From the NCBI GenBank assembly GCA_003009755.1, contig PXUB01000003.1:1-64000 (forward strand): 64,000 bases of DNA, written 5' to 3'. A program made the position numbers and the translations under genes. Origin of the DNA: Thermoplasmatales archaeon SW_10_69_26 (GTDB lineage Archaea; Thermoplasmatota; SW-10-69-26). The notes under the pieces are model-generated. The model was given only the letters and a program-made list of their open reading frames with translations, was not told the DNA's origin and ran no database searches. Of this stretch, positions 2,895 through 54,400 are shown one piece after another; the first letter of the stretch is position 1; every line of letters starts with the position of its first letter.

Positions 2895-4436
2895 ATGAGC
2901 GACCGGCTGACCTCCGTGAACCCGGCGACGGGCGATCTCGTCCACGAGACCGCGATCGACGACGCCTCCCAGGTTCGACAGGCCATCGCGAAGGCGCGCG
3001 AGGCCCAGCCCGCCTGGGCTGAACGAAGCCCCAGCCAGCGGCTCGTGGCCCTCGAGCCGGCGTTGACCCGGATCGTCGACGACCGCAACGCGTTCGCCGA
3101 AGCCGTCACCGCCGAGGCCGGCAAACCCGTCGCCGAGGCGCTGGTGGCCGACGTCATGCCCACCCTCGAGGCCGGCGCCTTCCTCGACCGTCACGCCGAG
3201 GCCATCCTCGAACCGCCCGCCCAGCGCCTGGACAACATGCTGCTGAAGGACCGCAAAAGCCATCTCCGGCGCGAACCGGCCGGCCTCGTCGCCATCGTCG
3301 CCCCCTGGAACTACCCGCTGGCCATCCCCGCCTCCCAGGCCCTGTTCGCGTTGGCTGCCGGCAACGCCGTCGTGCTCAAGCCCTCCGAGCGCACGCCCGG
3401 CGTCGGCCAACGGTTCGCCGACGCGATCGCAGACGCCGACCTCCCCGAGGGCCTGTTCCAGCTCGTCCAAGGCCCCGGCGATCCCACGGGCCGGGCCCTC
3501 GTCGAGGCCGACCCCGACGTGCTGTTGTTCACCGGCCGCGCCGAAACCGGGCAAGCCATCGCCGACGAGGTGGGACCCGACACCGCGACCGTGCTCGAGC
3601 TGGGCGGCAACGACCCGATGCTCGTGCTCGACGACGCCAACCTCTCGCTGGCGGCCCGCGGAGCCACGTGGGCTGCCTTCGCGAACGCCGGGCAGACCTG
3701 CTCGGCCGTCGAGCGGCTGTTCGTCGACCGCACGCGCGCCGGGGATCTCGAGGATCGACTGGCCAAGCACGCCGACGCGCTCCGCGTGGGCCCCGGCGAC
3801 CGCGAGGACGTCGACGTCGGCCCGATGATCACCGACGCCGCCGTCGAGCGCACGATGAGCCACATCGAGGACGCGCTCGACCGGGGCGCCCGGCTCGTCG
3901 CCGGCGGCCAGCGGCGCGACGACCTGGGGCCACGGTTCGTCCAGCCCGCGGTCTTGGCGGACGTGCCTCCCCAGGCGCGCGTGATGCGGGAGGAAACCTT
4001 CGGCCCGGTGCTTCCCGTCGCCACCGTCGAGGGTGAGGACGAGGCCCTCGAGCGCGCCAACGCCTCATGCTACGGGTTGACCGCCAGCGTGTGGACGACG
4101 CGGCCCGACCGCGGCGACGAACTGGCTGGCCGCCTGGAGGCCGGCACGGTCACGATCAACGATCACGCCTACACCTACGCCGCCTGCGAGACCCCCTGGG
4201 GTGGCGTGAAGGACAGCGGAGCCGGCCACACCCACGGCCGAGCCGGCCTCGAGGCCCTCACCCAGCTCAAGCACGTCAACCACGCCTCACCCAACCGCCC
4301 CGGCTCGCCGTGGTGGTTCCCCTACGACCAGGACCTCCGACGCATGGGCGACGAAGGCCTGGCGTTCCTCTACGGCTCGAAGAAGGAAGGTTTGGCCTCT
4401 GTCGCGCCCGCCGTCCGTCGTCTGCTCGGCCCCTGA
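2895..4436 (+). CDS. Aldehyde dehydrogenase, succinate-semialdehyde dehydrogenase-like
   Basis: NAD(P)-dependent ALDH-superfamily enzyme of 513 aa, oxidising an aldehyde to the acid. The cofactor-domain motif VAPWNYPLAIP is near residue 135, the general-base Glu is in LELGGNDP (about 236) and the catalytic Cys in NAGQTCSAVERL (about 270). EETFGPVLPV and the C-terminal NDHAYTYAACETPWGG follow in order. The length is normal for the family. The pattern resembles succinate-semialdehyde dehydrogenases, but the substrate cannot be read from sequence. AACTTATCC at 2862-2870 lies about 28 nt before the ATG, supporting a leaderless transcript. The gene stands alone. Confidence 0.88.
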   Translation: MSDRLTSVNPATGDLVHETAIDDASQVRQAIAKAREAQPAWAERSPSQRLVALEPALTRIVDDRNAFAEAVTAEAGKPVAEALVADVMPTLEAGAFLDRHAEAILEPPAQRLDNMLLKDRKSHLRREPAGLVAIVAPWNYPLAIPASQALFALAAGNAVVLKPSERTPGVGQRFADAIADADLPEGLFQLVQGPGDPTGRALVEADPDVLLFTGRAETGQAIADEVGPDTATVLELGGNDPMLVLDDANLSLAARGATWAAFANAGQTCSAVERLFVDRTRAGDLEDRLAKHADALRVGPGDREDVDVGPMITDAAVERTMSHIEDALDRGARLVAGGQRRDDLGPRFVQPAVLADVPPQARVMREETFGPVLPVATVEGEDEALERANASCYGLTASVWTTRPDRGDELAGRLEAGTVTINDHAYTYAACETPWGGVKDSGAGHTHGRAGLEALTQLKHVNHASPNRPGSPWWFPYDQDLRRMGDEGLAFLYGSKKEGLASVAPAVRRLLGP

Positions 4437-5621: not shown

Positions 5622-8150
5622 ATGGCCTCTCCGGGCGAACACGGGGAACCGACCCCTGCACGATCGTGGGACAGCCTGCTTGCCTGGTTCCCGGAGGCTG
5701 CGCTGCTCTGCGACGCGGGAGGCCGCATCCGCGCGGCCAACGATGCTGCCCGGGAGCTGGTGGCCGAGGCCGATCCCGTCGGCCGACGCCTCTTCGACGT
5801 CGTGCGGATCGAGGACCCCGCCTACGCCGGGGCCTGGCCCCCCGAGACCGAGGAAGCCAGCCTCACTGCCCGCGTCGGGGCCGAGCCCGTGGTCCTCCGC
5901 GTGCAGACCCGCGGTACGGGCGAGGACGAGCGGACGATCGTCTCGTTGCGCCGCCTCGATGGGACCACCGAGACGGTGGAACGCGCCGTCTCGCTGTTGG
6001 AGGCCACGCTCGACGCGACCGCCGACGGCATCCTCGTCGTCGACCTCGACGGCAGCATCGTCACCTGGAACCAGGCCTTCCAGCAGATGTGGAACGTCCC
6101 CGGGGACCTGCTGGCCGAACGCGACGACGAGAAGCTTTTGAGCTTCGTCGCCGACCAGCTCGAGGATCCCGACTCCTTCCTCGACAACGTCCGCGAGGTC
6201 TACCAGGATCCCGAGACCGAGAGCTTCGACGTCCTCCGGTTCGAGGACGGTCGCTGCTTCCACCGGTACTCGAAACCCCAGCGCGTCGGTGGCCAGGTCG
6301 TCGGCCGGGTGTGGAGCTTCCGCGACGTCACCGACCAGGAACGCATCGAGAAGCGCCTGCGGCGCAGCGAGCAGCAGTTCCGCTCGCTGTTCGAGAACGT
6401 GCCCATCGGCATCTACCGGACCACGCCCGACGGACGGATCCTGCTCGCCAACCCCTGGCTCGTCGACATGCTCGGCTACGAGTCCGCCGAGGAGATGGCC
6501 ACCCGCAACCTCGAGGCGGACACCGAGTTCTTCGAACCGGACTACTCCCGCGAGAAGTTCCGTCGCCAACTCGAGGAGGACGGCGAGGTCCGCGGCATCG
6601 AGGCCCGCTGGATCCGCGAGGACGGCAGCGAGATCTACGTCCGCGAGAGCGCCCGCGCCGTCCGTGACGAGCAAGGTGACATCCTGTACTACGAGGGGAC
6701 CGTCGAGGACATCAGCGAACGCCGCGAGTACGAGCGCCGGCTGCGCCGCATGGCGCGGTTCCCCGAGGAGAACCCGAACCCGATCCTCGAGGTCACGGCC
6801 GAGGGCGAGGTCACCTACCGCAACCCCCCCGCGCGCGAGAGGCTGGCCGAGCTGACCCACCTCGAACCCGACAGCCCGATCCGAGCCGCCGTCGATCACC
6901 TGCTCGACGCGGCCCAGGAGGGCCGCGAGATCGACGACCAAGGCGAGGTCTCCGTCGACGATGCGACCTTCGAGTGGAAGGCCTACACGCTGCCCGACGA
7001 GGGCTCGCTGCGGCTGTACCTGCACGACGTGACCGACCGCGTCGAAGCCAAGCAGGCGCTCCGCGAGAGCGAGCAGCGGCTGCAGACCGTCGTCAGCGAG
7101 GCTCCGATCCTGCTGTTGACGCTGAACCCCGACGGACGCGTCCGGTTCGTCACCGGCACCGGCCTCCAGGAACTGGGCCTCACCGCCGACGAGCTCGAGG
7201 GCCGCCACCCGCAAGAGATGGACGCGCTCGACGAGGACGCCCGGCGGTCGATCGAGCACGCTCTCGAGGGCCACCACGCCCAGACGCTGGCCCACATCGA
7301 CGACCGCTGGGCCCAGATCCAGCTCTCCCCCGTCCGAGACGAGGACGGCGAGGTCGAGAGCGTCATCGCCGTCGCGATCGACGTCACCGACCGCAAGGAG
7401 GCCGAGGACGAGGTCCGGCACCTCAACGAGAACCTCGAGCAGATCGTCGAGGAGCGGACCGCCGAGCTCGAGGCCGCCAACCGGGAGCTCAAAGCCTTCA
7501 GCTACAGCGTCAGCCACGACCTCCGCGCGCCCTTGCAGACGATCGACGGCTTCAGCCAGATCCTGCTCGAGAGCCGCTCGGAGGAGCTCGGCGAGGAGGG
7601 CCGTCACCTGTTGTCCCGCATCCGTCGCGCCAGCCAGACGATGGCCGACCGCATCGATGCCCTGCTCACCCTCTCCCGCGTCACCCGACACGAGCTCAAC
7701 CCCGACCGGCTGGATCTCTCCGACATGGCGCGCGAGATCCTGACCGAGCTCCACGAACGCAACCCCGAACGCTCGATCGAATGGGAGGTCGAGGACGACA
7801 TGCGGGCCACCGGGGACCCCTCGCTCGTGCGGGCCATGCTCGACAACTTGATCCGCAACGCCTGGAAGTTCACCCGCGAAGAGGACCCGGCCCGGATCCA
7901 GGTCTACCGCGCCGAAGGGGACGAGAACGCGTTCGTCGTCGAGGACAACGGCGAAGGCTTCGACCCCGCGCACGCCGACGAGCTCTTCCAGCCCTTCGAA
8001 CGCCTGGACGAGGACGTCGAGGGCACGGGCATCGGGCTCGCCACGGTCGAACGGATCGTCCGCCGCCACAACGGCGCGATCGAAGCCGACGGCGAGCCCG
8101 GCGAGGGAGCTTGCTTCACCTTCGTCCTGCCGGAGGAAACCGATGAGTGA
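5622..8150 (+). CDS. Soluble multi-PAS sensor histidine kinase
   Basis: 842 aa with no membrane segments, hence a cytosolic sensor. At least four PAS/PAC-like units precede the kinase core (about residues 10-110, 120-245, 245-370, 480-590; a degenerate one at about 375-480). The H box is FSYSVSHDLRAPLQTI near residue 630, followed by an N box (LDNLIRNAWKF, about 743), G1 (VEDNGEGFD) and G2 (GTGIGLATV). GGTATAAGG at 5588-5596 lies about 29 nt before the ATG at 5622, supporting that start over the upstream GTG at 5610. The gene overlaps the response regulator at 8143 by 8 nt, so the two form a kinase-regulator pair. The ligand is unknown. Confidence 0.88.
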   Translation: MASPGEHGEPTPARSWDSLLAWFPEAALLCDAGGRIRAANDAARELVAEADPVGRRLFDVVRIEDPAYAGAWPPETEEASLTARVGAEPVVLRVQTRGTGEDERTIVSLRRLDGTTETVERAVSLLEATLDATADGILVVDLDGSIVTWNQAFQQMWNVPGDLLAERDDEKLLSFVADQLEDPDSFLDNVREVYQDPETESFDVLRFEDGRCFHRYSKPQRVGGQVVGRVWSFRDVTDQERIEKRLRRSEQQFRSLFENVPIGIYRTTPDGRILLANPWLVDMLGYESAEEMATRNLEADTEFFEPDYSREKFRRQLEEDGEVRGIEARWIREDGSEIYVRESARAVRDEQGDILYYEGTVEDISERREYERRLRRMARFPEENPNPILEVTAEGEVTYRNPPARERLAELTHLEPDSPIRAAVDHLLDAAQEGREIDDQGEVSVDDATFEWKAYTLPDEGSLRLYLHDVTDRVEAKQALRESEQRLQTVVSEAPILLLTLNPDGRVRFVTGTGLQELGLTADELEGRHPQEMDALDEDARRSIEHALEGHHAQTLAHIDDRWAQIQLSPVRDEDGEVESVIAVAIDVTDRKEAEDEVRHLNENLEQIVEERTAELEAANRELKAFSYSVSHDLRAPLQTIDGFSQILLESRSEELGEEGRHLLSRIRRASQTMADRIDALLTLSRVTRHELNPDRLDLSDMAREILTELHERNPERSIEWEVEDDMRATGDPSLVRAMLDNLIRNAWKFTREEDPARIQVYRAEGDENAFVVEDNGEGFDPAHADELFQPFERLDEDVEGTGIGLATVERIVRRHNGAIEADGEPGEGACFTFVLPEETDE

Positions 8151-20741: not shown

Positions 20742-21893
20742 ATGCCCCCCTACAAGCAGATGGGTGAGGTCCCGCCCAAACGGCACACCGAGTTCCGGAC
20801 CGAGGACGGCAAGCTGTTGCGCGAGGAGGTCTTCGGCACCGAGGGCTTCGAGGGTGTCGAAAGCATCCTCTACCACCACCACCCGCCCACCGAGATCAAC
20901 AGCCTCGAGGGCCGGCGCAACGTCGCGCCCGAGGAGTGGGAGCCCGACCAGCACCGCCATCACCACTTCCGCGCCGGCAAGCTCGGTGGCGACGGCGACC
21001 CGATCGACGCCCGCAAGGTCGTCTTGTTCAACGACGAGGCCAACGTGGCGATGGTCAACCCGAGTGAGGACCAGGACCGGTTCTTCCGCAACGCCGGCGC
21101 CGACGAGCTGTGGTTCGTCCGCGAGGGCGAGGGCCACCTCGACACCGTGTTCGGCGAGCTGCACTACACCAGCGGCGACTACATCCACGTCCCCCGCGGG
21201 ACGACCTACCGGTTCCGCAACCCCGCCGGCCACAGGTTCTACCTCGTCGAGAGCTCGGACCCGATCCGCATCCCGGATCACTTCCTCAACGATCGCGGCC
21301 AGCTCGTCGAGGGCGCGCCCTACAGCGAGCGCGACCTCCACGGCCCCAAACAGCTGATCACGAACGACGAGGAGGGCGACTTCGAGCTCGACGTCAAGGT
21401 CGACGAGGCGATCAGCACCTACACGCTCGACAACCACCCCTTCGACGTCGTCGGCTGGGACGGTTACAACTACCCGTTCACGTTCAACATCGCCGACTAC
21501 GAGCCGATCACCGGCAAGATCCACCAGCCACCCCCGGAGCACGTCACCTTCGAGGCCTCCAGCTTCGAGCTGATCAGCTGGGTCCCGCGCAAGGTCGACT
21601 ACCACCCGGACGCGATCCCGGCCCCCTACTACCACAGCAACATCGACACCGACGAGGTCATCTTCTACGTCGAAGGCGAGTTCTCCTCGCGCGAGGGCAT
21701 CGGCGACGAGTCGATCACGATCCACCGCCGCGGCCTGCACCATGGCCCCCAGCCCGGCCGCTACGAGGGATCGATCGGCGTCGACGAGGTCGAGGAAACC
21801 TCGGTCATGATCGAGGCCGACAGCCCGTTCAAGACCACCAAGTGGGCCCACCAGGTCGACGACAGCGAGTACATGTTCAGTTGGGCGGAGTGA
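20742..21893 (+). CDS. hmgA: Homogentisate 1,2-dioxygenase
   Basis: 383 aa cupin-type Fe(II) enzyme that opens the ring of homogentisate to maleylacetoacetate in tyrosine catabolism. Recognisable segments are NAGADELWFVREGEG, TFGELHYTSGDYIHVPRGTTYRF in parts, YHSNIDTDEVIFYVEG and HRRGLHHGPQPGRYEG, which carry the cupin histidine/glutamate metal ligands. CCCTTTATC (20698-20706) is the likely TATA element, giving a short leader. HPPD (35477) and a fumarylacetoacetase-like gene (40450) supply the flanking steps but are not in the same operon. Confidence 0.9.
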   Translation: MPPYKQMGEVPPKRHTEFRTEDGKLLREEVFGTEGFEGVESILYHHHPPTEINSLEGRRNVAPEEWEPDQHRHHHFRAGKLGGDGDPIDARKVVLFNDEANVAMVNPSEDQDRFFRNAGADELWFVREGEGHLDTVFGELHYTSGDYIHVPRGTTYRFRNPAGHRFYLVESSDPIRIPDHFLNDRGQLVEGAPYSERDLHGPKQLITNDEEGDFELDVKVDEAISTYTLDNHPFDVVGWDGYNYPFTFNIADYEPITGKIHQPPPEHVTFEASSFELISWVPRKVDYHPDAIPAPYYHSNIDTDEVIFYVEGEFSSREGIGDESITIHRRGLHHGPQPGRYEGSIGVDEVEETSVMIEADSPFKTTKWAHQVDDSEYMFSWAE

Positions 21894-24091: not shown

Positions 24092-24166
24092 CGCCGAGCG
24101 CGGAGGCAACGCCGGGGAGGGAAGCCTTGATGTCGGCCGAGAGCCATTTCCAGGGTGGAGGCTGAC

Positions 24167-26221
24167 ATGCGAGGCGACCCACGGCGAGGCAAGGCGCTGT
24201 TCGTCACGCTCTTCCTTCTGACCACCCCCCTGGCGCTGACCACGGCCGCCGCCCTCGGCGGCCCGACGACCCTCTCGCCCGACGCGGCGCGGACCCCTGT
24301 CGAGGCCGAGGGCCCCCTCGAGGCCGCCCACCAGGCAGCCGACCACGTCGACGCGGTCGCCGCCGCGAACGGGGCCCCTGCGCCGGGATCCACGGCCGTC
24401 GACGCCGTCGGCCCGACGCTGGACCTCGCCGAGGCCCTGCGGACCGCCGACGACCCGGGGATCGACACCGCGCTCGAGCGGGCCCGCCTCGCGAGTGACC
24501 ACCAGATCGGCCGGCTGGGCACCGACGCCGAGCCGGTCACCGCAGGGGACCACGAGCGGCCCAGCCGGGCGCTTACCGCCCTCGCCGACGACCACGACCG
24601 CCGCCTCGCGCTCGACGAGGTCCAGGCCCTGCGGGCCCTCGACCGGCTGCCGACGCCGACGGCTGACGCGCTGGCGGACACCGTCGACGCCTACCGCGCC
24701 TTCGAGACCGCGACCCTCGACGCCGCCGAGCAGGGCGCCTTCGAGGCCATCGCGGACCCGAGCCCCGCCGGCCTGGCGGGCGACGACCACGAGCAGGTGG
24801 CCACCGTGCTCGCCACGCGAACCGCGTTCCTCGACGCCGTCGCCGACCTGCACGCGGCCGCCGACGCGCCGCCCGCCGAGGCGCAGGCACCCGGGGCCTC
24901 GGCCGCCGCCGCGCCGGACGTCGACCTGTGCCCGGTCGCCGCCGTCGACCTCGGTGGCGCCACGAGCTACGAGGCCGACTGCTCGCTGATCGTCGACCTC
25001 GCCGGCGACGATACCTACGCGAACAACGCCGGCGGCGCCCGCGGGGGCGCCGCGGCCGTGGTCGACCTCGGCGGCCAGGACGCGTACGGGGACCCCGTCG
25101 ACCTCGACGACAACGGCGCCAACGGCGGCGCCGTCCAGGGCGCCGGCGTCCTCGTCGACGCCGCCGGGGACGACACCTACGAGGCCCGCTCCTGGGGCGT
25201 CAACGGGGGCGCCTTCCGCGGCGCCGGCCTGCTCGTCGACGGGGGCGGCGCCGACCGCTACCGGGCGGCGACCGACGAGACCGTCACGCGGCTGGCCGAC
25301 AAGGATGTCGGCTCCTACGGCGTCAACGGGGGCGGCCACCGCGGCGGGCTCGGGCTGCTCGTCGACCAAGACGGCCACGACGCCTACGAGGCGGGGACCG
25401 GGCTCGACTGCCAGGCCGTCTGCGCCACCGTCGGCTCCTACGGCGTGAACGGCGGCGGCAACTACGGCGGCCAGGGCCTGCTGCTCGACGCCGGCGGCGA
25501 CGACCGCTACCTGGCCGGCGTCGGCGCGGCGTGCCCGCTGGACTGCGACGACCTGGGGATCAGCGGCGTCAACGGCGGCGGGTTCTTCGGGAACGGCGGC
25601 CTGGTCGACGGCGGCGGCGAGGATGTCTACCGGGCCGGCGTCAACGTCGTCTGCGAGACCTCGGAGTGCCGGGAGATCGGGGAAAGCGGGGTCAACGGCG
25701 GCGCCCAGACGCACGGCGCCGGCGTCCTCGTCGACCACGGGGACGCGGACGACACCTACGAGGCGGGCGTGCACGTGAACTGCGACCCGCGGTGCACCGC
25801 CGGACGCGACGGCGCCAACGGCGCCGGCACCGCCGGGACCGGGCTCCTCGTGGACGAGGGTGGCGACGACGCCTACCGGGCCGGCGTCGACGTGCACATG
25901 CCCTGCGAGGGGACCTCCTGCGACGTGAATGTCGGCGGGGACGGCGCCAACGGCGGCGCCGACAGCGTGGGCCGGGCCGCGCTGGTGGACCTCGGCGGCG
26001 ACGACGCCTACCTCGGCGGGGTCGACGTGACGTGCGAGGCCGAGCTGTGCGAGGTCGGTCAGGAGGCCGTCAACGGCGGCGCTGACCTGGGGGCGGGCCT
26101 GCTCGTCGACGCCCAGGGGACCGACCGGTATGAGGACGACCAGGGCGGCACCGGCACCGACCGGACCGTCGCGCCCAAGGGCGAGCTCGGCGCCCAGATC
26201 GACACCGACGACGCGCCCTGA
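24167..26221 (+). CDS. Large secreted repeat protein A, GGDDxY repeats
   Basis: About 684 aa. Signal peptide (FVTLFLLTTPLALTTAAALG), then an alpha-rich domain (about 30-250), then about ten repeats with the consensus GxNGGG-GxGxLVDxGGDDxYxAG spaced 22-38 residues apart (about 270-665). Some repeats insert Cys pairs such as VCETSEC or LDCQAVC. The C-terminus is GTGTDRTVAPKGELGAQIDT. The Gly/Asp turns resemble RTX calcium-binding beta-rolls, so an extracellular Ca-stabilised solenoid is likely (inference). A paralogue with the same layout and C-terminal motif is at 30827-32788. The ATG 24167 was preferred because the signal peptide starts shortly after it. Confidence 0.72.
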   Translation: MRGDPRRGKALFVTLFLLTTPLALTTAAALGGPTTLSPDAARTPVEAEGPLEAAHQAADHVDAVAAANGAPAPGSTAVDAVGPTLDLAEALRTADDPGIDTALERARLASDHQIGRLGTDAEPVTAGDHERPSRALTALADDHDRRLALDEVQALRALDRLPTPTADALADTVDAYRAFETATLDAAEQGAFEAIADPSPAGLAGDDHEQVATVLATRTAFLDAVADLHAAADAPPAEAQAPGASAAAAPDVDLCPVAAVDLGGATSYEADCSLIVDLAGDDTYANNAGGARGGAAAVVDLGGQDAYGDPVDLDDNGANGGAVQGAGVLVDAAGDDTYEARSWGVNGGAFRGAGLLVDGGGADRYRAATDETVTRLADKDVGSYGVNGGGHRGGLGLLVDQDGHDAYEAGTGLDCQAVCATVGSYGVNGGGNYGGQGLLLDAGGDDRYLAGVGAACPLDCDDLGISGVNGGGFFGNGGLVDGGGEDVYRAGVNVVCETSECREIGESGVNGGAQTHGAGVLVDHGDADDTYEAGVHVNCDPRCTAGRDGANGAGTAGTGLLVDEGGDDAYRAGVDVHMPCEGTSCDVNVGGDGANGGADSVGRAALVDLGGDDAYLGGVDVTCEAELCEVGQEAVNGGADLGAGLLVDAQGTDRYEDDQGGTGTDRTVAPKGELGAQIDTDDAP

Positions 26222-28356: not shown

Positions 28357-29433
28357 ATGACCGACCCATCGATCCGCGAACCGGACGTGCTCAACGAGCC
28401 CGGCGCCCGCGAACGCGCCGGCTGGGCCGCCGAAGCCGCCGAGCGCGAGAACGCCTTCGTGATCGCCTCCGGCAGCGTCCAACGCGAGACCCCGATCGTC
28501 GCGGACGTCGAGGAGGCCCTCGAGGACTTCCACGTCGGCACACACGTCGGGATCGGTCAACACGCCCCCAAGGACAACGTCGAGAAGGCCACCGAGGCCG
28601 CGCGCCGCGCCGACGCCGACCTCCTCGTCTCCGTCGGCGGCGGCAGCGTGCTCGACGCCGCCAAGTTCGTGCAACGCGAGCTCTCCGACGGGTTCGAGAC
28701 CGAGATCCCCGCCCACGTCGCGATCCCGACCACGCTGTCCGGCTCCGAGTTCACGATCCTCGCCGGCTGGACCGCCGAGGGCTCCGACGGCCAGCCCGTC
28801 AAGACCGGCATGAGCGACCCCCGCATCGTGCCCGACGTCGCCCTGCTCGACGGCGAAGCCTGCACGTACACGCCGCGCTGGCTGTGGGCCGCCACCGGGA
28901 TCCGCGCCGTCGACCACGCCGTCGAAGGCATCACCAGCTCGCAAGCCACCGAGGAAAGCGACGAGCGCTGCCTCGAAGCGATCGAGCTCTTCGCCGAGCA
29001 CCTGCCCGAGGCCGTCGACGACGCCGACGACGTCGAGGCCCACACCCAGTGCCTGGAGGCGGGCCGCCAAGCCTCGGCCGGCATCAACTACGCCGCCAGC
29101 GGCGCCGGCCTCTCCCACAAGCTCGGCAAGGCGATCGGCTCCACCTGGGACGTCCCCCACGGCGTCACGAGCGCGCTCACGCTGCCCAAGGTGCTCGAGT
29201 TCGAGGCCGAGCGCCAGCCCGAACGCGTCGCGCTCATCGAGGACGCGCTGGGCGTCGACGACGCCGCGGACGCCATCCGCCAGCTCGTCGCCGACGTCGG
29301 CATCGAGCGCAAGCCGCTCAAGGAGTACGGCATCGAGGGTACAGATGTGCCCTGGATCGTCGAGTACGCGCTCGGCAAGCGCGACGACGACGTCGAGCAG
29401 CTGACGCTGGAGCTGCTGGAAGACGTGGAATAG
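28357..29433 (+). CDS. Iron-containing alcohol dehydrogenase family protein
   Basis: 358 aa. NAD-binding motif VSVGGGSVLDAAKFV near residue 95, then IPTTLSGSEFT, and the metal-site histidines in RAVDHAVEG (about 190) and WDVPHGVTSAL (about 270). This is the Fe-ADH/maleylacetate-reductase-like fold; the substrate is unknown. CCATAGG (28329-28335) lies about 26 nt before the ATG (leaderless). The 3' portion from about 29150 is duplicated in decayed form at 30564-30728 on the far side of the toxin-antitoxin pair. Confidence 0.85.
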   Translation: MTDPSIREPDVLNEPGARERAGWAAEAAERENAFVIASGSVQRETPIVADVEEALEDFHVGTHVGIGQHAPKDNVEKATEAARRADADLLVSVGGGSVLDAAKFVQRELSDGFETEIPAHVAIPTTLSGSEFTILAGWTAEGSDGQPVKTGMSDPRIVPDVALLDGEACTYTPRWLWAATGIRAVDHAVEGITSSQATEESDERCLEAIELFAEHLPEAVDDADDVEAHTQCLEAGRQASAGINYAASGAGLSHKLGKAIGSTWDVPHGVTSALTLPKVLEFEAERQPERVALIEDALGVDDAADAIRQLVADVGIERKPLKEYGIEGTDVPWIVEYALGKRDDDVEQLTLELLEDVE

Positions 29434-29552
29434 GAAGGGCGGAGGCCTGCGGGCTTGGGTCCTCCGACGATCTCAGCCTGACCAGATCGACCCGATCGGA
29501 GAACGTCCGCTGTAGCCACCGGAAGGACTAAGCCACTTGGCGGTCTTAGATA

Positions 29553-29564
29553 TGCCATATGGCA
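29553..29564. promoter_or_regulatory. Palindrome over the antitoxin start
   Basis: TGCCATATGGCA is a perfect 12-bp palindrome that includes the antitoxin ATG, a plausible autoregulatory operator of the Xre-RES operon. Confidence 0.45.
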
Positions 29565-30029
29565 CTAGGCGCCGGGGCGGGGGATGCGCCCTCTGTCGAG
29601 GCGGCAGGCGACACCGAGCTCCCGACGGTCATCCGGAGCTTGAACTTGCAGGCGTCGAGCCCGCTCGCGGTCGCCGACGAGATCGAACAGGGGTTGGGCG
29701 TCGACGCGCTGGAAGCCCTGCAAGAGACCCTCCGGTTGTCCGGTGACCAGATGGCCGAGGCCATCGGTATCTCCCCCCGAACGCTCTCCCGGAGGAGGGA
29801 CGCCGGCATGCTCACCCCCGAGGAGTCGGACCGGCTCGTTCAGCTCGGGATCCTGTTCGACGAAGCCGTCGCGCTCTTCGACGGCGAAGTCGAGCAAGCC
29901 CGCGATTGGTTCAAGCACCCGACGCGAGCTCTGGGGGACGCGTCCCCGCTGGCCACGGCCAGCACGTTCGTCGGCGCCCGCGAGGTGGAGAAGCTCATCG
30001 GCCGACTGGAGCACGGGGTCTTCGCTTGA
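29559..30029 (+). CDS. Xre/MbcA/ParS-type antitoxin
   Basis: 156 aa. A helix-turn-helix (LRLSGDQMAEAIGISPRTLSRRR, in part; about 65-90) is followed by the toxin-binding C-terminal domain: FDEAVALFDGEVEQARDWFKHPTRALG, in part, and the FVGAREVEKLIGRLEHGVFA ending. This is the DUF2384-type antitoxin that pairs with RES toxins. The stop overlaps the RES start (TTGA). Expected to repress its operon and bind the RES protein. Confidence 0.85.
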   Translation: MALGAGAGDAPSVEAAGDTELPTVIRSLNLQASSPLAVADEIEQGLGVDALEALQETLRLSGDQMAEAIGISPRTLSRRRDAGMLTPEESDRLVQLGILFDEAVALFDGEVEQARDWFKHPTRALGDASPLATASTFVGAREVEKLIGRLEHGVFA

Positions 30030-30484
30030 CTCGGATCTGGCGGATGTGCAGATCTCGCCACCTCGACGACGCCTTCGACGGCGAGGGAGCCCGACGCTAC
30101 GGCGGCCGGTGGAACAGCCCCGGAACCCGGATGGTCTACACCGCGGACAGCGCCGCCCTCGCCACGCTCGAGATCCTCGTCAACCTCGAGCAGACAGCCT
30201 TGCTCGCGGCCTACAACTTCGTCCCGGCCGACCTCGACGAGGAGTTCATCGAGGATCTCGGCAACGACGAGATGCCCGACGACTGGCGTCAGGCCCCGCC
30301 CTCCGAGAGCACGCAGCGCATCGGGGACGAGTGGATCGAAAGCGAGAGCTCCGTTGGACTGAGAGTCCCCAGTTCCGTGGTGCCTGGAGAGAACATCCTC
30401 CTGAACCCCGACCACTCCCACTTCCGGGAGATCGAGGTCCAAGAACCGATGGACTGGGACGCGGATCCCCGGCTTCTGCCCTAG
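30026..30484 (+). CDS. RES-domain toxin
   Basis: 152 aa from TTG 30026, overlapping the antitoxin by 4 nt. The core motif GARRYGGRWNSPGTRMVYTA (about residues 20-39) and the later ALATLEILVNL and VPGENILLNPDHSHF are typical of RES toxins, which belong to the ADP-ribosyltransferase fold and deplete NAD+. All expected conserved Arg, Tyr and Glu residues of the first half appear intact, so the module may be active. Confidence 0.85.
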   Translation: MTRIWRMCRSRHLDDAFDGEGARRYGGRWNSPGTRMVYTADSAALATLEILVNLEQTALLAAYNFVPADLDEEFIEDLGNDEMPDDWRQAPPSESTQRIGDEWIESESSVGLRVPSSVVPGENILLNPDHSHFREIEVQEPMDWDADPRLLP

Positions 30485-30563
30485 TAGCTCACACGTCTCG
30501 TTCCCCTTCACAGTCCGTGGGAGGTCAGTAGGGGCGTCCGACCGAGCGGGGTGGGCAACGCGA

Positions 30564-30728
30564 ACTGGGATCCCCCGCGGCGTCACGAGCGCGCTCACCC
30601 TGCCCAAGGTGCTCGAGTTCGAGGCCGAGCGCCAGCCCGAACGCGTCGCCCTCGTCGAGCACGCGCTCGGCAAGCGCGACGACGACGTCGAGCAGCTGAC
30701 GCTGGAGCTGCTGGAGAGCGTCGAGTAG
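30564..30728 (+). pseudogene. Decayed copy of the Fe-alcohol dehydrogenase 3' end
   Basis: Reads VTSALTLPKVLEFEAERQ... and ends KRDDDVEQLTLELLESVE followed by stop, nearly identical to the end of the gene at 28357-29433. An internal stretch of about 120 nt is missing, joined between short similar sequences (TCGAGGACGCGCT and TCGAGTACGCGCT in the parent). It has no start. It lies immediately beyond the Xre-RES pair in the same orientation as the parent gene. The rest of 30485-30826 holds no gene. Confidence 0.85.
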
Positions 30729-30826
30729 ACGGGTCGGCGTCCGTCTCCGTCGGGTCGAGGACGACCGTGGCCTAGCTGTCCGTCGCCTCGTTGCCCACCT
30801 CGGCCCTCAGAGGTCGGCCGGGCATC

Positions 30827-32788
30827 TTAGGGGGTGGTGTCGTCGCTGTCCACCTGGGCGCCCACGGTCCCCTTCGGGGCCACGGTGCGGTCCACGCCGG
30901 TCCCGCCGGCACCGTCCTCGTACTCGTCGCGACCGCCGCCGTCCAGCAGCGCACCGACGCCCCCGGACCAGCCGCCTCCGTTCGTGCCCCTGTCCTCGGC
31001 GGTGTAGATGTCGTTCCCGGCTCGGTCGAGCAGGAACCCCTCACCGTCCCAGTAGCCGCCGCCGTTCGTCCCTGCACCTTCCGCGGCGTAGGTGTCGTCC
31101 CCGGACCGATCAAGGAGACGGCCTTCGCCTCCGGCAGCGCCACCGTTCGTCCCTTCGAAGCCACCCTGGTACGTGTCGTTGCCCGCTCGGTCGACCAGCA
31201 GACCGCTGGCGCCGTCGGCTCCCCCACCGTTCGTGCCCACGTCGGCGGCAGCGTACGAGTCGTTCCCGGCCTCGTCGATCAAGGTTCCCTCGCCGTCGAA
31301 GTTGGCCCCCTCGTGGGCTCCGCCGTTGGTACCCGACGTCCCGGCGGTGTAGGTGTCGTCGCCACCTTCGTCGAGCAGGAAGCCCGTGCCCGAGTCCCCT
31401 CCTCCGTTCGTGCCCCTGTCCTCGGCGGTGTAGGTGTCGCTTCCGCCTCCGTCGAGCAAGGCACCCACGCCAGCGAACCATCCGCCGCCGTTCGTGCCGA
31501 GGTCTTCCGCGCCGTAGGCGTCGTTGCCAGCTCGGTCGAGCAGGAAGCCGACCCCGTCGGATGTGGCTCCGCCATTCGCACCCGAGAGACGGGCGGTGTA
31601 GGTGTCGTTGCCGGCTCGGTCAAGCAGGGAGCCGGTGCCGAGGTTGTCTCCGCCTCCGTTCGTGCCGTGCGAAGCGGCCGTGTAGGTGTCGTTCCCGGTT
31701 TCGTCGAGCAGGAACCCTGCGCCGAGCGATCCACCCCCGTTCGTGCCGACGCGATGCGCATGGTAGACGTCGTCCCCGCCCTCGTCGAACAGGAAGCCCG
31801 CACCCTCGTAGCCACCGCCGTTGGCACCACAGCTGCGGGGGTCGGTTCGATCTCCGAAGGCATCCTCGCCGTGACCGAGGTCGATCAACGCCGCGGACGC
31901 ATACTCTCTCGTCTGGAGGAGCTGGCAAGTCCCCTCGGCGAGGTTGCTGCCACCGGCGTTGTTGCGGTAGCGGTCGTCGCCTCCCCCGTCGACCAGCACA
32001 GCCACGTCTTCCTCGTAGAGGTTGTCGCAAGAGGTCAAGTCGATCGAGAACGCAGGTGCCACGGTGAGGGGGTCACAGGCGGTCTGGGCCCCCGACTGGG
32101 GGAAGGCATCCTGTAGCCGGGTGGCGGCCTGGAGGACGTGTGTTCGGGACGTGAGGATGGGTCCCAGGTCTACGCCCGCCTCGGCCAGCGGGGTCGCACC
32201 CCTCGCGGAAGCGCTCTGGTGGGACGGACGGTCGGGGTCGACATCGGTCCCGGATGCAGCCATCGCGGCTTGGGGGCGCACGGTTCCCGGGTCGTAGCCC
32301 TCGTAGGCTCGCTGCGTGGCGGCATCGAAGGCCAAGAAGGCGTCGACGAACCGCGTCAGGGCATCGTGTTGCTCCGCGGGGAGGGTGTCGAGAACCTGGA
32401 GGGCCCGCCGGTCCTCGGACGAGGGTGTGGTGTTGTGGCGATCCATGAGCGTGGTCAAGGCATCGCTGGGCGAGCCATGGTGGGGCACCTCCACGTCGGC
32501 GAGCTCGGCTCCGTGCTGGTTGGCCTGCCACTCCGCCGCCTGCCGGGTCAGGCTCACCCTGTCTGCCTCCAGCGTGACTGGGGCCTCGGTCCGGCTACCG
32601 ATCGCGCTGGCGTCCACCGAGAGCCGCTGGGCTACCGGGTCCGGGAGGAGCGGCAGGTGCAGCCGATCGCGGACGTTCGCGTCCGCTGACGGGGACGCTG
32701 CGGTGGCGGAGGTCGCCAACCCCAACAGGACCAAAGCCACCACGCCCACGCCGACGATCGCCCAAGATAGGGATCGCGTAACCGTCAT
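30827..32788 (-). CDS. Large secreted repeat protein B, GGDDxY/AGNDTY repeats
   Basis: About 653 aa from ATG 32788 (an in-frame ATG at 32836 adds 16 residues). Signal segment SLSWAIVGVGVVALVLLGLA, an alpha-rich domain (to about 265), then roughly thirteen regular repeats of about 24 residues with consensus GTNGGG-GxGFLLDRAGNDTYTAED. The C-terminus GTGVDRTVAPKGTVGAQVDS matches protein A (24167-26221). Repeat regularity is higher than in protein A and Cys insertions are absent. Presumed extracellular, Ca-binding beta-roll-like (inference). It is transcribed away from the small secreted-protein genes at 32843 and 33378. Confidence 0.72.
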   Translation of the reverse strand: MTVTRSLSWAIVGVGVVALVLLGLATSATAASPSADANVRDRLHLPLLPDPVAQRLSVDASAIGSRTEAPVTLEADRVSLTRQAAEWQANQHGAELADVEVPHHGSPSDALTTLMDRHNTTPSSEDRRALQVLDTLPAEQHDALTRFVDAFLAFDAATQRAYEGYDPGTVRPQAAMAASGTDVDPDRPSHQSASARGATPLAEAGVDLGPILTSRTHVLQAATRLQDAFPQSGAQTACDPLTVAPAFSIDLTSCDNLYEEDVAVLVDGGGDDRYRNNAGGSNLAEGTCQLLQTREYASAALIDLGHGEDAFGDRTDPRSCGANGGGYEGAGFLFDEGGDDVYHAHRVGTNGGGSLGAGFLLDETGNDTYTAASHGTNGGGDNLGTGSLLDRAGNDTYTARLSGANGGATSDGVGFLLDRAGNDAYGAEDLGTNGGGWFAGVGALLDGGGSDTYTAEDRGTNGGGDSGTGFLLDEGGDDTYTAGTSGTNGGAHEGANFDGEGTLIDEAGNDSYAAADVGTNGGGADGASGLLVDRAGNDTYQGGFEGTNGGAAGGEGRLLDRSGDDTYAAEGAGTNGGGYWDGEGFLLDRAGNDIYTAEDRGTNGGGWSGGVGALLDGGGRDEYEDGAGGTGVDRTVAPKGTVGAQVDSDDTTP

Positions 32789-32842
32789 CCGTGCGAGCCG
32801 CCCAGCGGGGAGAACCCGCCGTGCGCGGAAAAACATGAGGTC

Positions 32843-33337
32843 TTGCCGCCCAGTTGGGGCACACCTCTGACTGCTCCGGCCGCCGCCGACCATGGCGCTG
32901 GACAGAAGTTCGTGGAGATGCAGGTTGGGCAAGCGCCGCTCCCGACGGCTGGCAACCACGTTCACCTCGACCCCGCCGACCCGGTCGGCACAGAGCGGAC
33001 CGTGGCGACGTTCGAGGTCCCCGACCACGACGATCGGTTCTACCTGCACGTGACCGAGGTCCAGACCAACGGCGCGGCGGTCGAGTTCAGCGACCGCATC
33101 ACCGCCGTCAGCCCCGACGGTAACCGAAGCGAGGTCGGCGGCTACACGCCGAACGGCAACTTCGTCGCGGTCTGGGCCTGCTACGATCCCCCGGCTCCGT
33201 TCTGTTCGGATGAGCGCCATCCCGGCCTGGATCCACCCCACGTGACCGAGGCCGGAGACGGGGAGTACGAACTCCGGTTCGTCGGCCTCACGTCCCTCAG
33301 CTACACCGTCTCCGTGTACGGGTTCGTCGACGGATAG
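32843..33337 (+). CDS. Small secreted-type protein, signal peptide apparently lost
   Basis: 164 aa from TTG. From residue 12 (APAAADHGAGQKFVEM) it aligns with the mature start of its tandem neighbour at 33378 (APVAADDGAGETFVEM), then shares TVATFEVPD, YLHVTE and a GEYELRF end. The hydrophobic signal core present in the neighbour is missing, because the sequence upstream is unrelated. It may be a 5'-truncated gene or may use a non-standard start. Confidence 0.5.
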   Translation: MPPSWGTPLTAPAAADHGAGQKFVEMQVGQAPLPTAGNHVHLDPADPVGTERTVATFEVPDHDDRFYLHVTEVQTNGAAVEFSDRITAVSPDGNRSEVGGYTPNGNFVAVWACYDPPAPFCSDERHPGLDPPHVTEAGDGEYELRFVGLTSLSYTVSVYGFVDG

Positions 33338-33377
33338 TCCCCGAAGTCCTTATCCACGCCGAGACGGTTCGACTGAC

Positions 33378-33896
33378 ATGCGATGGAGGTCCGGGCTCGC
33401 GGTCTGGGTCGGTCTAGCGATGGCGTTGCTGGGGATGGCTCCGGTCGCCGCCGACGACGGCGCCGGAGAAACGTTCGTCGAAATGGAAATCGGTGACGCA
33501 CCGGCACCTACCGTCGGGTACACGACCGAGACGGACGGCGGTTTTCCCGCCGACCGGGGACGCACCGTGGACACCTTCGAGGTGCCCGACCGCTTCGACG
33601 AGTTCCACCTCTACATGACCGAGAAGCACACCGAGGCCACGACGCGCGCCGAGGTGTGGGAGAGCTTCACTGCTGAGGCGCCCAGCGGGGCCTCGGTCCA
33701 GGTCGGCGGCCACACCGGCGGCACCGGGTTCGGGTTCAGCACCTGCCTCCCGCCGGCGGTGTCCTGCACGTACGAGAAGCACCCCGGATCGAACCCGAAC
33801 TACGTCAAGCCGGCCGAGGACGGAACCTACGAACTCCGGGTGGAGGGCGTCGTGACCGGCACCTACACGGTCACCGGCTATGGGCTCAGCGGGTGA
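33378..33896 (+). CDS. Small secreted protein, unknown family
   Basis: 172 aa with a clear signal peptide (SGLAVWVGLAMALLGMAPVAA) and an acidic mature domain with two cysteines and a predicted beta fold (TVDTFEVPDRFDEFHLYMTE; YELRVEGVVTGTYTVTGYGL). CCTTATCC (33348-33355) lies about 27 nt before the ATG, so leaderless. Tandem paralogue of the frame at 32843. Confidence 0.68.
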   Translation: MRWRSGLAVWVGLAMALLGMAPVAADDGAGETFVEMEIGDAPAPTVGYTTETDGGFPADRGRTVDTFEVPDRFDEFHLYMTEKHTEATTRAEVWESFTAEAPSGASVQVGGHTGGTGFGFSTCLPPAVSCTYEKHPGSNPNYVKPAEDGTYELRVEGVVTGTYTVTGYGLSG

Positions 33897-33917
33897 GAGC
33901 CTCGGCTTCCGGGCCGC

Positions 33918-34160
33918 TCATGCGCCCCGCGGGTCGACGAGCCGGAACCCGATGTCCGAGCCCATCTGCTGATCGAACGCCAGCTGCCTGTTCAGGTACG
34001 CCAGCGATTCCAGGTAGCGCGCATTCGCCAGCGGGCCGGCATCCGTCGTCTCGAACCCGATATCCTCGGCCAACGAGACCGCCTCCCGGCGAGCCTGCTC
34101 GTCGCCGGCCGCGACCACCGTCAACGGTTCCCCGCGCACGTCGCCGGACGGAGAGGCTTC
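33918..34160 (-). pseudogene. C-terminal fragment of an NADPH-F420 reductase-like protein
   Basis: About 80 residues without a start: LTVVAAGDEQARREAVSLAED, IGFETTDAGPLANARYLESL, and LAFDQQMGSDIGFRLV before the stop. This resembles the C-terminal half of F420-dependent NADP reductase/dinucleotide-binding proteins. The N-terminal Rossmann domain is absent. No parent copy is in the window. It lies next to a second 3'-end fragment (34234-34400), forming a small graveyard of gene ends. Confidence 0.6.
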
Positions 34161-34233
34161 CGAGAAAGGAACTGTTCGAGGACGCCCCCTCCCGGGGCCG
34201 CCTCGTGACCGACCGAGCCGCTGAGGCTCCCCG

Positions 34234-34400
34234 CTATTCGAGCGTGCGGCGCTCGGCCTGCTGTTGCTCGATCGCCTTGAACAGGGCCTTGAAGTTGCCC
34301 TTGCCGAACCCTTGGGCGCCCCTACGCTGGATGATCTCTCGAAGAACATCGTCGGGCGATCCTGGATCGGGTTCGTGAACAGCTGCAGCAGGTAGCCCTC
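34234..34400 (-). pseudogene. Decayed copy of the HPPD 3' end
   Basis: About 167 nt nearly matching the 3' end of hppD (35477 onward): it encodes GAQGFGKGNFKALFKAIEQQ and LFTNPIQDRP, but a 2-nt insertion and other changes break the frame. It has the same orientation as hppD and is separated from it by the MNT-HEPN pair. Similarity continues a little past the stop codon. Confidence 0.85.
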
Positions 34401-34464
34401 GTGACCCCTGGACGTGAGTCCACCTTTCGAAACCATCAAACCGTCGCCGCTGCGTTCGCGATGC

Positions 34465-34785
34465 GTGCCGAACCGACGGAGAGACGCCGCGAGGGAGTTC
34501 GCCCGCCGGCTCGAGCAGTTGCTGGGCGACAACGTGCGGTCGATCCTCCTCTTCGGATCCGTGGCCCGCGGCGAGGACGACGCTTCCAGCGATGTGGATC
34601 TCCTGGTGATCGTTGAGGACGAAGGCGAGGTGCCCGATCTCTCTGAGGCAATCGGGTCCTGGATGGTGGAGCACGACGAGGTTCTCCAGCTCCACGTCGT
34701 CTCGCGGGAGAAGTACGAGGAGCTCCGTTCCAGAGGCACCGCGTTCGCCAACACGATCGCAAGAGAGGGCGAAGCGCTTGCCTGA
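34465..34785 (+). CDS. Minimal nucleotidyltransferase (MNT), antitoxin-type
   Basis: About 106 aa. The nucleotidyltransferase signature LLFGSVARGEDDASSDVDLL (G-S...D-x-D) is complete near residues 28-47. Proteins of this size paired with a HEPN gene form the MNT-HEPN toxin-antitoxin class, in which the MNT inactivates HEPN by AMP transfer. GTG 34465 was chosen since CTTTCGAAAC about 30 nt upstream is the only A/T-rich element; GTG 34414 is an alternative. It overlaps the HEPN frame by 8 nt. Confidence 0.8.
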   Translation: MPNRRRDAAREFARRLEQLLGDNVRSILLFGSVARGEDDASSDVDLLVIVEDEGEVPDLSEAIGSWMVEHDEVLQLHVVSREKYEELRSRGTAFANTIAREGEALA

Positions 34786-35173
34786 CGGAGCGGACCGGGA
34801 AGCGCAGGCGACCTTCGAGGAGGCCGAGCGGTTCCTCGACGAGGCTCATCGCCTCCACCGAGCGGGTTTCTCCGGGCCCTCGCTTCGATCCTCCTACTAT
34901 GCCTGTACCACGCGGCGCGAGCTCTGCTCCGTCTCGAGGGAAGCGACCCGAAGACACATCGCGGCGTGGTTTCCGAGTTCACGCGCCTCCTCGTGCGCGA
35001 GGGACCGTTCACGGAGGGAACGAGTGGCGACCTCAGCCGGGTCCTGTCAACGGTTGGAGAGCGACTATGAACCCGGCTTGGAGGTCACCCAAGAGAAGGC
35101 CAACTGGGCCCTGGAACGCGCCCGACGATTCGTGAACGAGGTAGGTGACGAACTGGCGACACGCCTGTCGTGA
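34778..35173 (+). pseudogene. HEPN-domain toxin, frame-disrupted
   Basis: The frame opens at TTG 34778 with EEAERFLDEAHRLHRAGFSG and YYAC, and ends with EVTQEKANWALERARRFVNE, both HEPN-like. The middle of the HEPN domain (YHAARALLRLEGSDPKTHRG, FTRLLVREGP) is encoded in another frame from about 34905 to 35070. So there are two compensating shifts: one base missing near 34903 and a shift back near 35065. Either the toxin is inactivated or the sequence has two errors. The intact form would be an RNase-like HEPN toxin partner of the MNT. Confidence 0.7.
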
Positions 35174-35338
35174 GGTCCAGCCGTCGGACGAGGCAACCTC
35201 GAAAACGGAGCTGGCGAGAACGAGGGGATGAGAGGACGACCCCTCCCGGGGCCGTCTAACCGGCGGTGGACGCGACGATGCGAGCGAGGTCGGCGACGAA
35301 CGAGCGGACCGAGGCAGGGCGTACGAAGAGATGAGTTC

Positions 35339-35432
35339 GGCGTGAGCGGTCGCTGACGAGGAGCGCGAAGCAGGGATACCCCTGTGGTATCCCGATGCAG
35401 CGCAACGACCGTCAGCGGGACCCGCTCACGCC
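35339..35432. other. Long imperfect hairpin between HEPN and hppD
   Basis: Nested complementary arms: GGCGTGAGCGG/CCGCTCACGCC (35339-35349, 35422-35432), CGCTGACG/CGTCAGCG (35351-35358, 35410-35417), GCGC/GCGC and GGGATACC/GGTATCCC (35373-35380, 35386-35393) around loop CCTGT. It could be an ncRNA, a convergent terminator or the end of a mobile segment. The flanking sequence 35174-35338 has no gene. Confidence 0.65.
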
Positions 35433-35476
35433 GGCCTGCCGAGGGAGCTCGTGAGGCAGCCGACCGACCGAGCCCC

Positions 35477-36637
35477 CTATTCGAGCGTGCCGCGTTCTTC
35501 CTGCTGCTGCTCGATCGCCTTGAACAGGGCCTTGAAGTTGCCCTTGCCGAACCCTTGGGCGCCCTTGCGCTGGATGATCTCGAAGAACATCGTCGGGCGA
35601 TCCTGGATCGGGTTCGTGAACAGCTGCAGCAGGTAGCCCTCCTCGTCCTGGTCGACGAGGATGCCGAGCTCGGCCAGGTCCTCGAGCTTCTCGTCGATGT
35701 CTTCGACGGGGATGCGGTCGGGCAGGTCCTCGTAGTAGGTCTCCGGGGCGTCCAGGAAGTCGACGCCGCGGCCGCGCATCTGGTCGATCGTGGTCAGGAT
35801 GTCGTCGGTCGTGATCGCCAGGTGCTGCACGCCCGGCCCGGGGTAGAAGTCCACGTACTCCTGGATCTGGGACTTCTTGAGGCCCTCGGCGGGCTCGTTG
35901 AGCGGGATCTTGACCGACAGGTCGTCGTTGGCCATGACCACGGACCGCAGCGCGGTGTAGTCCGTCGAGATGTCGTCCTCGTCGAACCCGACGAAGCGCT
36001 CGAAGCCGAACACGTCCTCGTAGAAGCTGGCCCAGGGCTCGAGACCGCCCTCCGGCAGGTTGCCGACGGTGTGGTCGATCGTGCCGAGGCCGACGTCGCC
36101 GGCGCCGTCCGCGTCGTCGTAGGGCTCGTAGCCGGGCAGGAACACGCCGTCGTAGTCGGAGCGGTCGACGAACGTGTGCACGGTGTCGCCGAACGTCGCG
36201 ATCGTCGCGATCTCGACGGTGCCATGCTCGTCCTCGAGCGTCTCCGGCTTGCGCACCGCGACCCCGTCGTCGATCTCGCCCTGCGTGAGCTGATCCTCGT
36301 AATCGCGGGCGCGGTCGAGCGCGGTCTGGAACGTGTCCTCGACATCGTCAGCCGCCAAGGCGACGTCGCGGACGCCGTCGGTGTGCAGAGCCACGTGGTC
36401 GGCGATCGTGGTGTCCGGCGTCATCGGCGCCGTCAGGACGATCCGGATGTCCCCCTGCTCCATCACGTAGCTGGCCCGATCCTCCACGTCCGTCTCTGGG
36501 CCGGCGTAGGCGACGGGTTCGAAGCCGTACGCGTGTTCGTAAACGTAGGCCGCCTGCTTGGCGTTCCCAACGTACAGTTCGACGTGGTCGAACCCCTCGA
36601 TCGGGAGCTGTTCCACGTCCGTGTCGTTCGAGGTCAC
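35477..36637 (-). CDS. hppD: 4-Hydroxyphenylpyruvate dioxygenase
   Basis: 386 aa, two VOC (vicinal oxygen chelate) domains. Metal ligands are visible: His in TIDHTVGNLPEG (about 160), His in GPGVQHLAI (about 245) and Glu in TMFFEIIQRKGAQGFGKGNF (about 350), the hallmark C-terminal helix region of the family. It converts 4-hydroxyphenylpyruvate to homogentisate, feeding the dioxygenase at 20742. GTG start; a CCCTTATCG element lies about 38 nt upstream on its strand. A partial copy of its 3' end is at 34234-34400. Confidence 0.92.
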   Translation of the reverse strand: MTSNDTDVEQLPIEGFDHVELYVGNAKQAAYVYEHAYGFEPVAYAGPETDVEDRASYVMEQGDIRIVLTAPMTPDTTIADHVALHTDGVRDVALAADDVEDTFQTALDRARDYEDQLTQGEIDDGVAVRKPETLEDEHGTVEIATIATFGDTVHTFVDRSDYDGVFLPGYEPYDDADGAGDVGLGTIDHTVGNLPEGGLEPWASFYEDVFGFERFVGFDEDDISTDYTALRSVVMANDDLSVKIPLNEPAEGLKKSQIQEYVDFYPGPGVQHLAITTDDILTTIDQMRGRGVDFLDAPETYYEDLPDRIPVEDIDEKLEDLAELGILVDQDEEGYLLQLFTNPIQDRPTMFFEIIQRKGAQGFGKGNFKALFKAIEQQQEERGTLE

Positions 36638-53679: not shown

Positions 53680-53997
53680 ATGGCCGAGGACGATGACCAG
53701 GGCAGCGGGTTCAACGGGCCTCTGCCCGACGAGCGGAAGCGGGAGATGTTCGCTCTCGCCAAGAACCTGCTCGGCGGCTCCCGCCTCGAGGTCGTCTGCG
53801 AGGACGGCGAGACCCGCATGGGACGCATCAAGGGCAAGCACAAGCGCCGCATGTGGATCCGCGAGGGGGATCTGTTGATCGTCAAGCCCTGGGACTTCCA
53901 GGACGAGAAGTGCGACGTCGAGTACCGCTACGTCCAGAACCAGTCCGAGTACCTCTCTCGCCGGGGCATGATCCCCGACGAGCTGGACGTGTTCTAG
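53680..53997 (+). CDS. eif1A: Translation initiation factor aIF1A
   Basis: 105 aa. OB-fold core with LEVVCEDGETRMGRIKGKHK, RMWIREGDLLIVKPWDFQDE, and the C-terminal helix KCDVEYRYVQNQSEYL. The factor promotes small-subunit scanning and start-site selection. The N-terminus is acidic rather than lysine-rich. TTTTATCA (53647-53654) lies about 29 nt before the ATG, so almost leaderless. Confidence 0.95.
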   Translation: MAEDDDQGSGFNGPLPDERKREMFALAKNLLGGSRLEVVCEDGETRMGRIKGKHKRRMWIREGDLLIVKPWDFQDEKCDVEYRYVQNQSEYLSRRGMIPDELDVF

Positions 53998-54400
53998 CTC
54001 GGTCGGTCGGCTCCCTTGGGGTCTCCCGTCGGCAGGCTGCCCCCAGCGGCTCCCGCCGACGGCGTCGCTCTGGATCGGAACGCCTCCGGCATTCCTGCTT
54101 CGAGCTCGTTGTCAGTGACCGCTGAGGCTATGCAGTGGATTCGGGCAGCCTGCCTCGGTCCGACCCTTCGGTCGCCGACCTCCCTCGCTGTGAAGCCGGG
54201 GTCATTGTCAGCGAACATGGGAGGGCGGCCATCCTGCCTTGGGTCCAATCGGCAGAGGCCGGCCCTCCGAGGAGGACGGATCCTGATCCGTCCGAACCGT
54301 GAGGGCTCCTGCCGTCAGGCGAACCCTCGCGGGAAGCCGAGCTTGCTCGGCTGACCCTTCGGTCGCCGACCTGCCTCGCTGCTGTGCAGCTGCCTGTTGC
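53998..54400. other. Intergenic region with hairpins and a direct repeat
   Basis: No gene is supported. The 28-nt sequence CGACCCTTCGGTCGCCGACC then TCCCTCGCTG (54161-54190) recurs with two changes at 54352-54381. Potential hairpins include CCGTCGGC/GCCGACGG, GGACGGAT-CCTG-ATCCGTCC and AGCCGAGC-TT-GCTCGGCT. An unrecognised RNA is possible. Confidence 0.5.

Follow-up and report, generated by a model that had tools for sequence, protein, structure and literature searches.

Integrative elements that occupy the 3' end of a tRNA or protein gene, such as e14 in icd, have the full gene on one side and a partial copy of its 3' end on the other. Insertion of restriction-modification (RM) genes with a long target duplication was reportedly described by Nobusato et al. 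in 2000 for Helicobacter pylori. Target duplications 'in the order of 100 bp' are described for inserted RM systems, and reviews group RM genes with toxin-antitoxin (TA) systems (PMC3874152; PMC3031569; PMC1643837). Here we describe a stretch of 64,000 nucleotides (nt) from the Thermoplasmatales archaeon SW_10_69_26 (contig PXUB01000003.1, positions 1 to 64,000; hereafter the window), in which two TA modules, Xre-RES and MNT-HEPN, lie in the gap bounded by the convergent genes for an Fe-containing alcohol dehydrogenase (ADH) and 4-hydroxyphenylpyruvate dioxygenase (hppD). Each module has the intact gene on one side and a decayed copy of the 3' end of that gene on the other. We consider it about an even chance that both modules entered the gap by insertion without an integrase, duplicating adjacent host DNA.

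The gene order across the gap is ADH - TA1 - ADH' - cargo - hppD' - TA2 - hppD, where a prime denotes a copy, and the layout is mirrored, with both gene-end copies 5'-truncated and facing inwards (Table 1). In a comparison of the window with itself by BLAST, both direct duplications were far above chance, with E-values of 1e-38 and 4e-25 for two pieces of ADH and 1e-69 for hppD. This bears out a first-pass annotation of the same DNA, which had twice noticed a TA pair together with a duplicated 3' end of the adjoining metabolic gene, and the same architecture is indeed shared by modules of two unrelated toxin families, RES and MNT-HEPN. Nucleotide alignment of the parents and copies, which that annotation had proposed, left the existence of both copies unchanged but altered their extents. 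The ADH copy, previously given as 30564-30728, starts at 30570 and corresponds to the last 282 nt of the parent (29152-29433) minus 123 nt (41 codons) deleted in frame; it is 93% identical to the parent (11 of 165 compared bases substituted). The 300-nt flanks downstream of the two ADH stop codons share no similarity (shuffled sequences reached the score in 90% of cases), and the homology therefore ends exactly at the stop codon. The hppD copy, previously given as about 167 nt (34234-34400), spans the last 165 nt of the coding region, where it is 96% identical to the parent (7 of 165 bases substituted), and its frame is broken by a 2-nt insertion. Beyond this coding part it also retains the start of the 3' flank and a hairpin: the homology continues into the flank (0 of 500 shuffles reached the score), and the hairpin CCCCTCCCGGGGCCG is present at 34186-34200 and, in the parent, at 35240-35254, but nowhere else in the window. 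The wider stretch around this hairpin had no other match in the genome at the sensitivity used. The duplicated hppD unit (410 nt, limits approximate) has lost about 188 nt in the copy, comprising the greater part of a dispersed palindromic repeat.

To polarise the differences between parents and copies, the genome G001, the only one from the same family (72-76% protein identity), was used as the outgroup. Among the informative differences, the intact ADH had the outgroup base in all 9 cases and the intact hppD in all 6, placing the changes on copies and parents at 15:0 over the two genes, and the proportions of synonymous and non-synonymous changes in the copies showed no departure from neutral (P 0.39, 0.36 and 0.18). 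With the intact genes ancestral at 15 of 15 sites, the copies are best read as duplicates of the lineage's own genes whose decay followed a loss of function. Such a pattern is predicted by self-duplication with later decay but not by import of a diverged orthologue, since orthologues would share the changes. The first-pass annotation had also considered orthologous ends from another strain. On this view, donor DNA with a TA module and a diverged 3' end would have recombined into the gene and left the old end behind. At ADH and hppD this polarity makes such an origin improbable, as does the non-coding 3' flank homology kept in the hppD unit, although the homology does stop at the stop codon for ADH, and for one other gene, gyrB, as this origin would have it. 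For gyrB (stretch L142, contig C32), the stop codon at 5900 is followed by a 148-nt string of three strong hairpins and, at 6049-6151, by a copy of the last 103 nt of the gene, 89% identical and ending at the stop codon. Its changes are predominantly synonymous (9, versus 2 non-synonymous; P = 5e-5 against neutral), as expected of orthologues, which gives it the appearance of an orthologous gene end and sets it apart from the copies in the window; more than one route may thus give the same picture. An assembly error joining contigs of two strains is very unlikely. The draft assembly comprises 49 contigs, and perfect 99-nt direct duplications elsewhere (L074:14563-14661/14827-14925 and L128 at about 3230-3328) are probably assembly joins, but the copies in the window are 93-96% identical to their parents and show a frameshift and deletions, so they do not represent intact alleles of a strain, and no N is found at the joins.

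The DNA between the two stop codons differs in composition from its surroundings. The GC content at third codon positions (GC3) is 0.79-0.87 in every gene between them versus 0.93-0.96 in the surrounding core genes, and the stretch 29434-35476 is therefore accessory DNA. It probably lies within a tyrosine-degradation cluster, judging from the identity of hppD, from a gene at 20742-21893 that resembles homogentisate dioxygenase in a profile search (below the model cut-off), and from G001, in which a gene very similar to the latter directly adjoins ADH.

In the mechanism that we propose, the two modules would have been inserted between ADH and hppD without an integrase, with duplication of some 280 nt up to the ADH stop codon and some 410 nt across the 3' end and 3' flank of hppD. 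After each event, the module would have stood between the complete gene and a 5'-truncated duplicate of that gene's end, and the redundant copies would then have decayed by substitutions, a frameshift and deletions. The molecular route may have involved re-replication, template switching or the integration, by homologous recombination, of a circular molecule with the module and a gene end, and recombination between the flanking repeats might allow excision. A target gene stays intact only if the duplication extends beyond its stop codon, and insertions at other positions of a gene would disappear, leaving the cases at 3' ends; the 3'-end bias is thus probably a survivorship filter for which no targeting is needed, and the footprints would suggest a simple reason for the location of such inserts. 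As in RM insertion with long target duplication, a small addictive module without a recombinase of its own lies in surroundings that are otherwise intact, the module is flanked by host-derived direct repeats of at least about 100 bp (here the 282-nt ADH and 410-nt hppD units), and the repeat copies derive from the recipient, the parents agreeing with the outgroup at all informative sites. Unlike RM insertion, the modules are Xre-RES and MNT-HEPN, the duplications are the 3' ends of two genes bounding one gap, the copies have decayed, and the insertion is read from one genome without an empty-site strain. The footprints bear on how small TA modules lacking their own recombinase enter genomes; if our interpretation is true, the mechanism proposed for bacterial RM genes would extend to TA modules in a GC-rich archaeal lineage.

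Several points weigh against insertion of this kind. The nearest genome, G001, has a single ADH and a single hppD without copies, but it is distant and non-syntenic, with different genes downstream of both, and none of the available genomes is close enough to reveal an empty site. Both the ADH copy and the gyrB copy stop precisely with the stop codon, which is unexpected for a random duplication end. No duplicated gene end was found at the 41 other TA loci scanned (six HEPN loci of this genome and 35 HEPN or RES loci elsewhere). Finally, the two events, located at opposite edges of a single gap, show similar divergence, which one nested insertion would fit as well. In the latter, a 3.8-kb piece of another allele (30570-34400), consisting of the ADH 3' end, the secreted-protein genes and the hppD 3' end, would have been inserted between two adjacent TA modules, and both gene-end copies would be the broken ends of the piece. 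One event would then account for both duplications, the order is exactly nested with both fragments truncated and inward-facing, and the similar divergence of the copies (11/165 and 7/165) would follow. We nevertheless regard a nested event as somewhat unlikely, since it requires that both modules were already adjacent in the recipient and, given the 15:0 polarisation, that the donor piece was nearly identical to the recipient at the time; in addition, the outer junctions have no target-site duplication or obvious microhomology, and a fragment of an F420 reductase gene next to the hppD copy is left unexplained. Tandem duplication likewise yields 3' fragments of neighbouring genes, as at L174:7566-11245 in the relative G006, where the 3' fragments of both bounding genes lie back to back. 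However, it gives the order A - X - B' directly joined to A' - X - B, in which the cargo is present twice, whereas the window reads A - TA1 - A' - cargo - B' - TA2 - B, and it was ruled out as the origin of the window arrangement because of this difference in gene order.

The scan for flanking direct repeats covered 42 RES and HEPN loci, among which a gene-end duplication across the module was present only at the RES locus of the window; the broken HEPN gene of the window is absent from the profile matches and was thus outside this set. The remaining matches were rejected as dispersed or intergenic repeats (L060 and L084) or as a marginal match of 46 nt (L110). Within the phylum, RES was found in 3 of 390 sampled genomes and HEPN in 91 of 293. 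We also surveyed gene ends in a 1.21-Mb sample (43% of the genome) chosen to contain all six other HEPN loci, leaving out paralogue pairs, low-complexity repeats and a truncated paralogue at L145. Besides the two in the window, the clear cases were gyrB and a convergent lipoprotein/GtrA pair on contig C25, neither of which has a TA pair. In the lipoprotein/GtrA case (L131, 506-4688), both 3' ends are copied at 597-770, and an S8-type protease gene lies between the ends and their copies, which are about 3 kb apart. A TA module is thus present at two of the four sites, an association that is post hoc and comes from a sample enriched for TA loci. As none of the 41 other TA loci has the pattern and both additional cases lack a TA pair, gene-end duplication is a feature of this genome and not of TA cargo, and the two additional duplications around unrelated inserts indicate that the process acts in this lineage.

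These results do not sustain the idea, raised in the first-pass annotation, of a dedicated TA route that targets 3' ends and would recur at TA pairs of other genomes. No duplicated gene end was found at the 35 loci elsewhere, other inserts are flanked alike, and the two modules have opposite orientations to their targets, Xre-RES running in the same direction as ADH and MNT-HEPN opposite to hppD. The geometry does correspond to attL and attR of integrative elements in gene 3' ends, and a mobile element might have used a site-specific recombinase, now elsewhere or lost, to target and restore such ends. We consider this highly improbable. Profile searches for integrase and transposase families found none among the island open reading frames (ORFs) or ten neighbouring window ORFs, in agreement with the earlier remark that no integrase is visible. 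Unlike e14-type elements, the inserts, at 0.8 and 1.1 kb, are not element-sized; they have no end sequence in common, and no shared att-like core is present; typical att cores are shorter than 280-410 nt. The opposite orientations of the modules and the lack of recurrence with the same cargo at the other loci also argue against a recombinase. Returning to insertion without an integrase, it is quite unlikely, though conceivable, that a general mechanism independent of recombinases allows this lineage to place cargo directly behind stop codons with duplication of the last 100-400 nt of the gene. If so, the cargo would comprise TA modules, hairpin strings and a protease gene, the target gene would survive, and the flanking repeats would permit later excision and transfer by homologous recombination.

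Table 1. Features in and around the gap between ADH and hppD (window coordinates; a dot marks features without a strand)
Feature	Coordinates	Strand	Basis
Fe-containing alcohol dehydrogenase (parent gene 1)	28357..29433	+	Pfam PF25137/PF00465; self-BLAST
Insert 1, 1136 nt, Xre-RES and flanks	29434..30569	.	Stretch between the two ADH 3'-end copies
Xre/ParS-type antitoxin	29559..30029	+	PF20432, PF09722; NF049845 103.2 bits (cut-off 90)
RES/ParT-type toxin	30044..30484	+	PF08808; NF049844 153.4 bits (cut-off 110)
Decayed ADH 3'-end copy, in-frame deletion, ends at own stop codon	30570..30728	+	Self-comparison
Repeat-rich secreted protein, no Pfam family, GC3 0.83	30830..32788	-	ORF list, Pfam
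Small secreted protein, paralogue of 33378..33896	32843..33337	+	ORF list
Small secreted protein	33378..33896	+	ORF list
C-terminal fragment of NADPH-dependent F420 reductase	33921..34170	-	TIGR01915, weak
Decayed hppD copy with 3' flank and hairpin; coding 3' end at 34234-34400	34177..34400	-	Self-comparison, shuffles
Insert 2, 831 nt, MNT-HEPN	34401..35231	.	Lies between the hppD unit and its copy
MNT-type nucleotidyltransferase, GSX10DXD motif	34414..34785	+	PF01909; NF047752 MntA below cut-off
HEPN gene, frameshifted	34781..35173	+	PF05168, weak match to C-terminal piece only
Parent version of the hppD unit (3' end of the coding region, palindromic repeat and hairpin)	35232..35641	-	Self-comparison, shuffles
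Dispersed palindromic repeat copy, abuts hppD stop codon	35260..35476	.	Repeat searches, DNA fold
hppD, 4-hydroxyphenylpyruvate dioxygenase (parent gene 2)	35477..36637	-	TIGR01263 416.9 bits (cut-off 277)

The Xre-RES pair is, to judge from its adjacent genes both scoring above curated cut-offs, a predicted type II RES/Xre TA system. Its earlier identification stands, as does that of the MNT domain, whereas the gene previously called HEPN is frameshifted and matches Pfam only weakly, in its C-terminal piece. The MNT-HEPN module may be of the type VII (MntA-HepT) kind: its MNT gene matches PF01909, carries the GSX10DXD motif and adjoins HEPN, but scores below the cut-off of the MntA model. Among GTDB contigs we found three bacterial relatives of RES (41-46% identity), none with a gene-end duplication; a search of plasmids with insert 1 gave no useful match, and viral contigs contained no relative of MNT or hppD. 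The dispersed palindromic repeat was also considered as a mark of the junction between Xre-RES and the ADH copy (motif CCGACCGAGC at 30538), but a profile search gave no support.

The F420 reductase fragment, which adjoins the hppD copy, is a third 3' gene remnant in the gap. It is 58% identical to the full gene on contig C6 of the same genome and 61% identical to that of G001, and may represent an older or foreign remnant. The repeat-rich secreted protein has a paralogue in opposite orientation outside the island, at 24155-26221, with a GC3 of 0.96 versus 0.83 inside.

The dispersed palindromic intergenic repeat, about 215 nt long, has more than 20 full or partial copies in 1.2 Mb, including those at 35260-35476 and 53997-54203 of the window and others in L124, L128, L152, L160 and L161. 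Several copies end 16 nt or less from a stop codon, and the repeat has a strong DNA fold (z about -6). A second intergenic repeat, of 161 nt, is present at L081:9192-9352 and in about 20 other stretches, with 24 matches in 22 of 61 sampled stretches; the copies displayed are 93-96% identical, as in a young and abundant family. In addition, two CopG-type ribbon-helix-helix genes with 80% DNA identity (1051-1365 and 61311-61676) lie in opposite orientation at opposite ends of the window.

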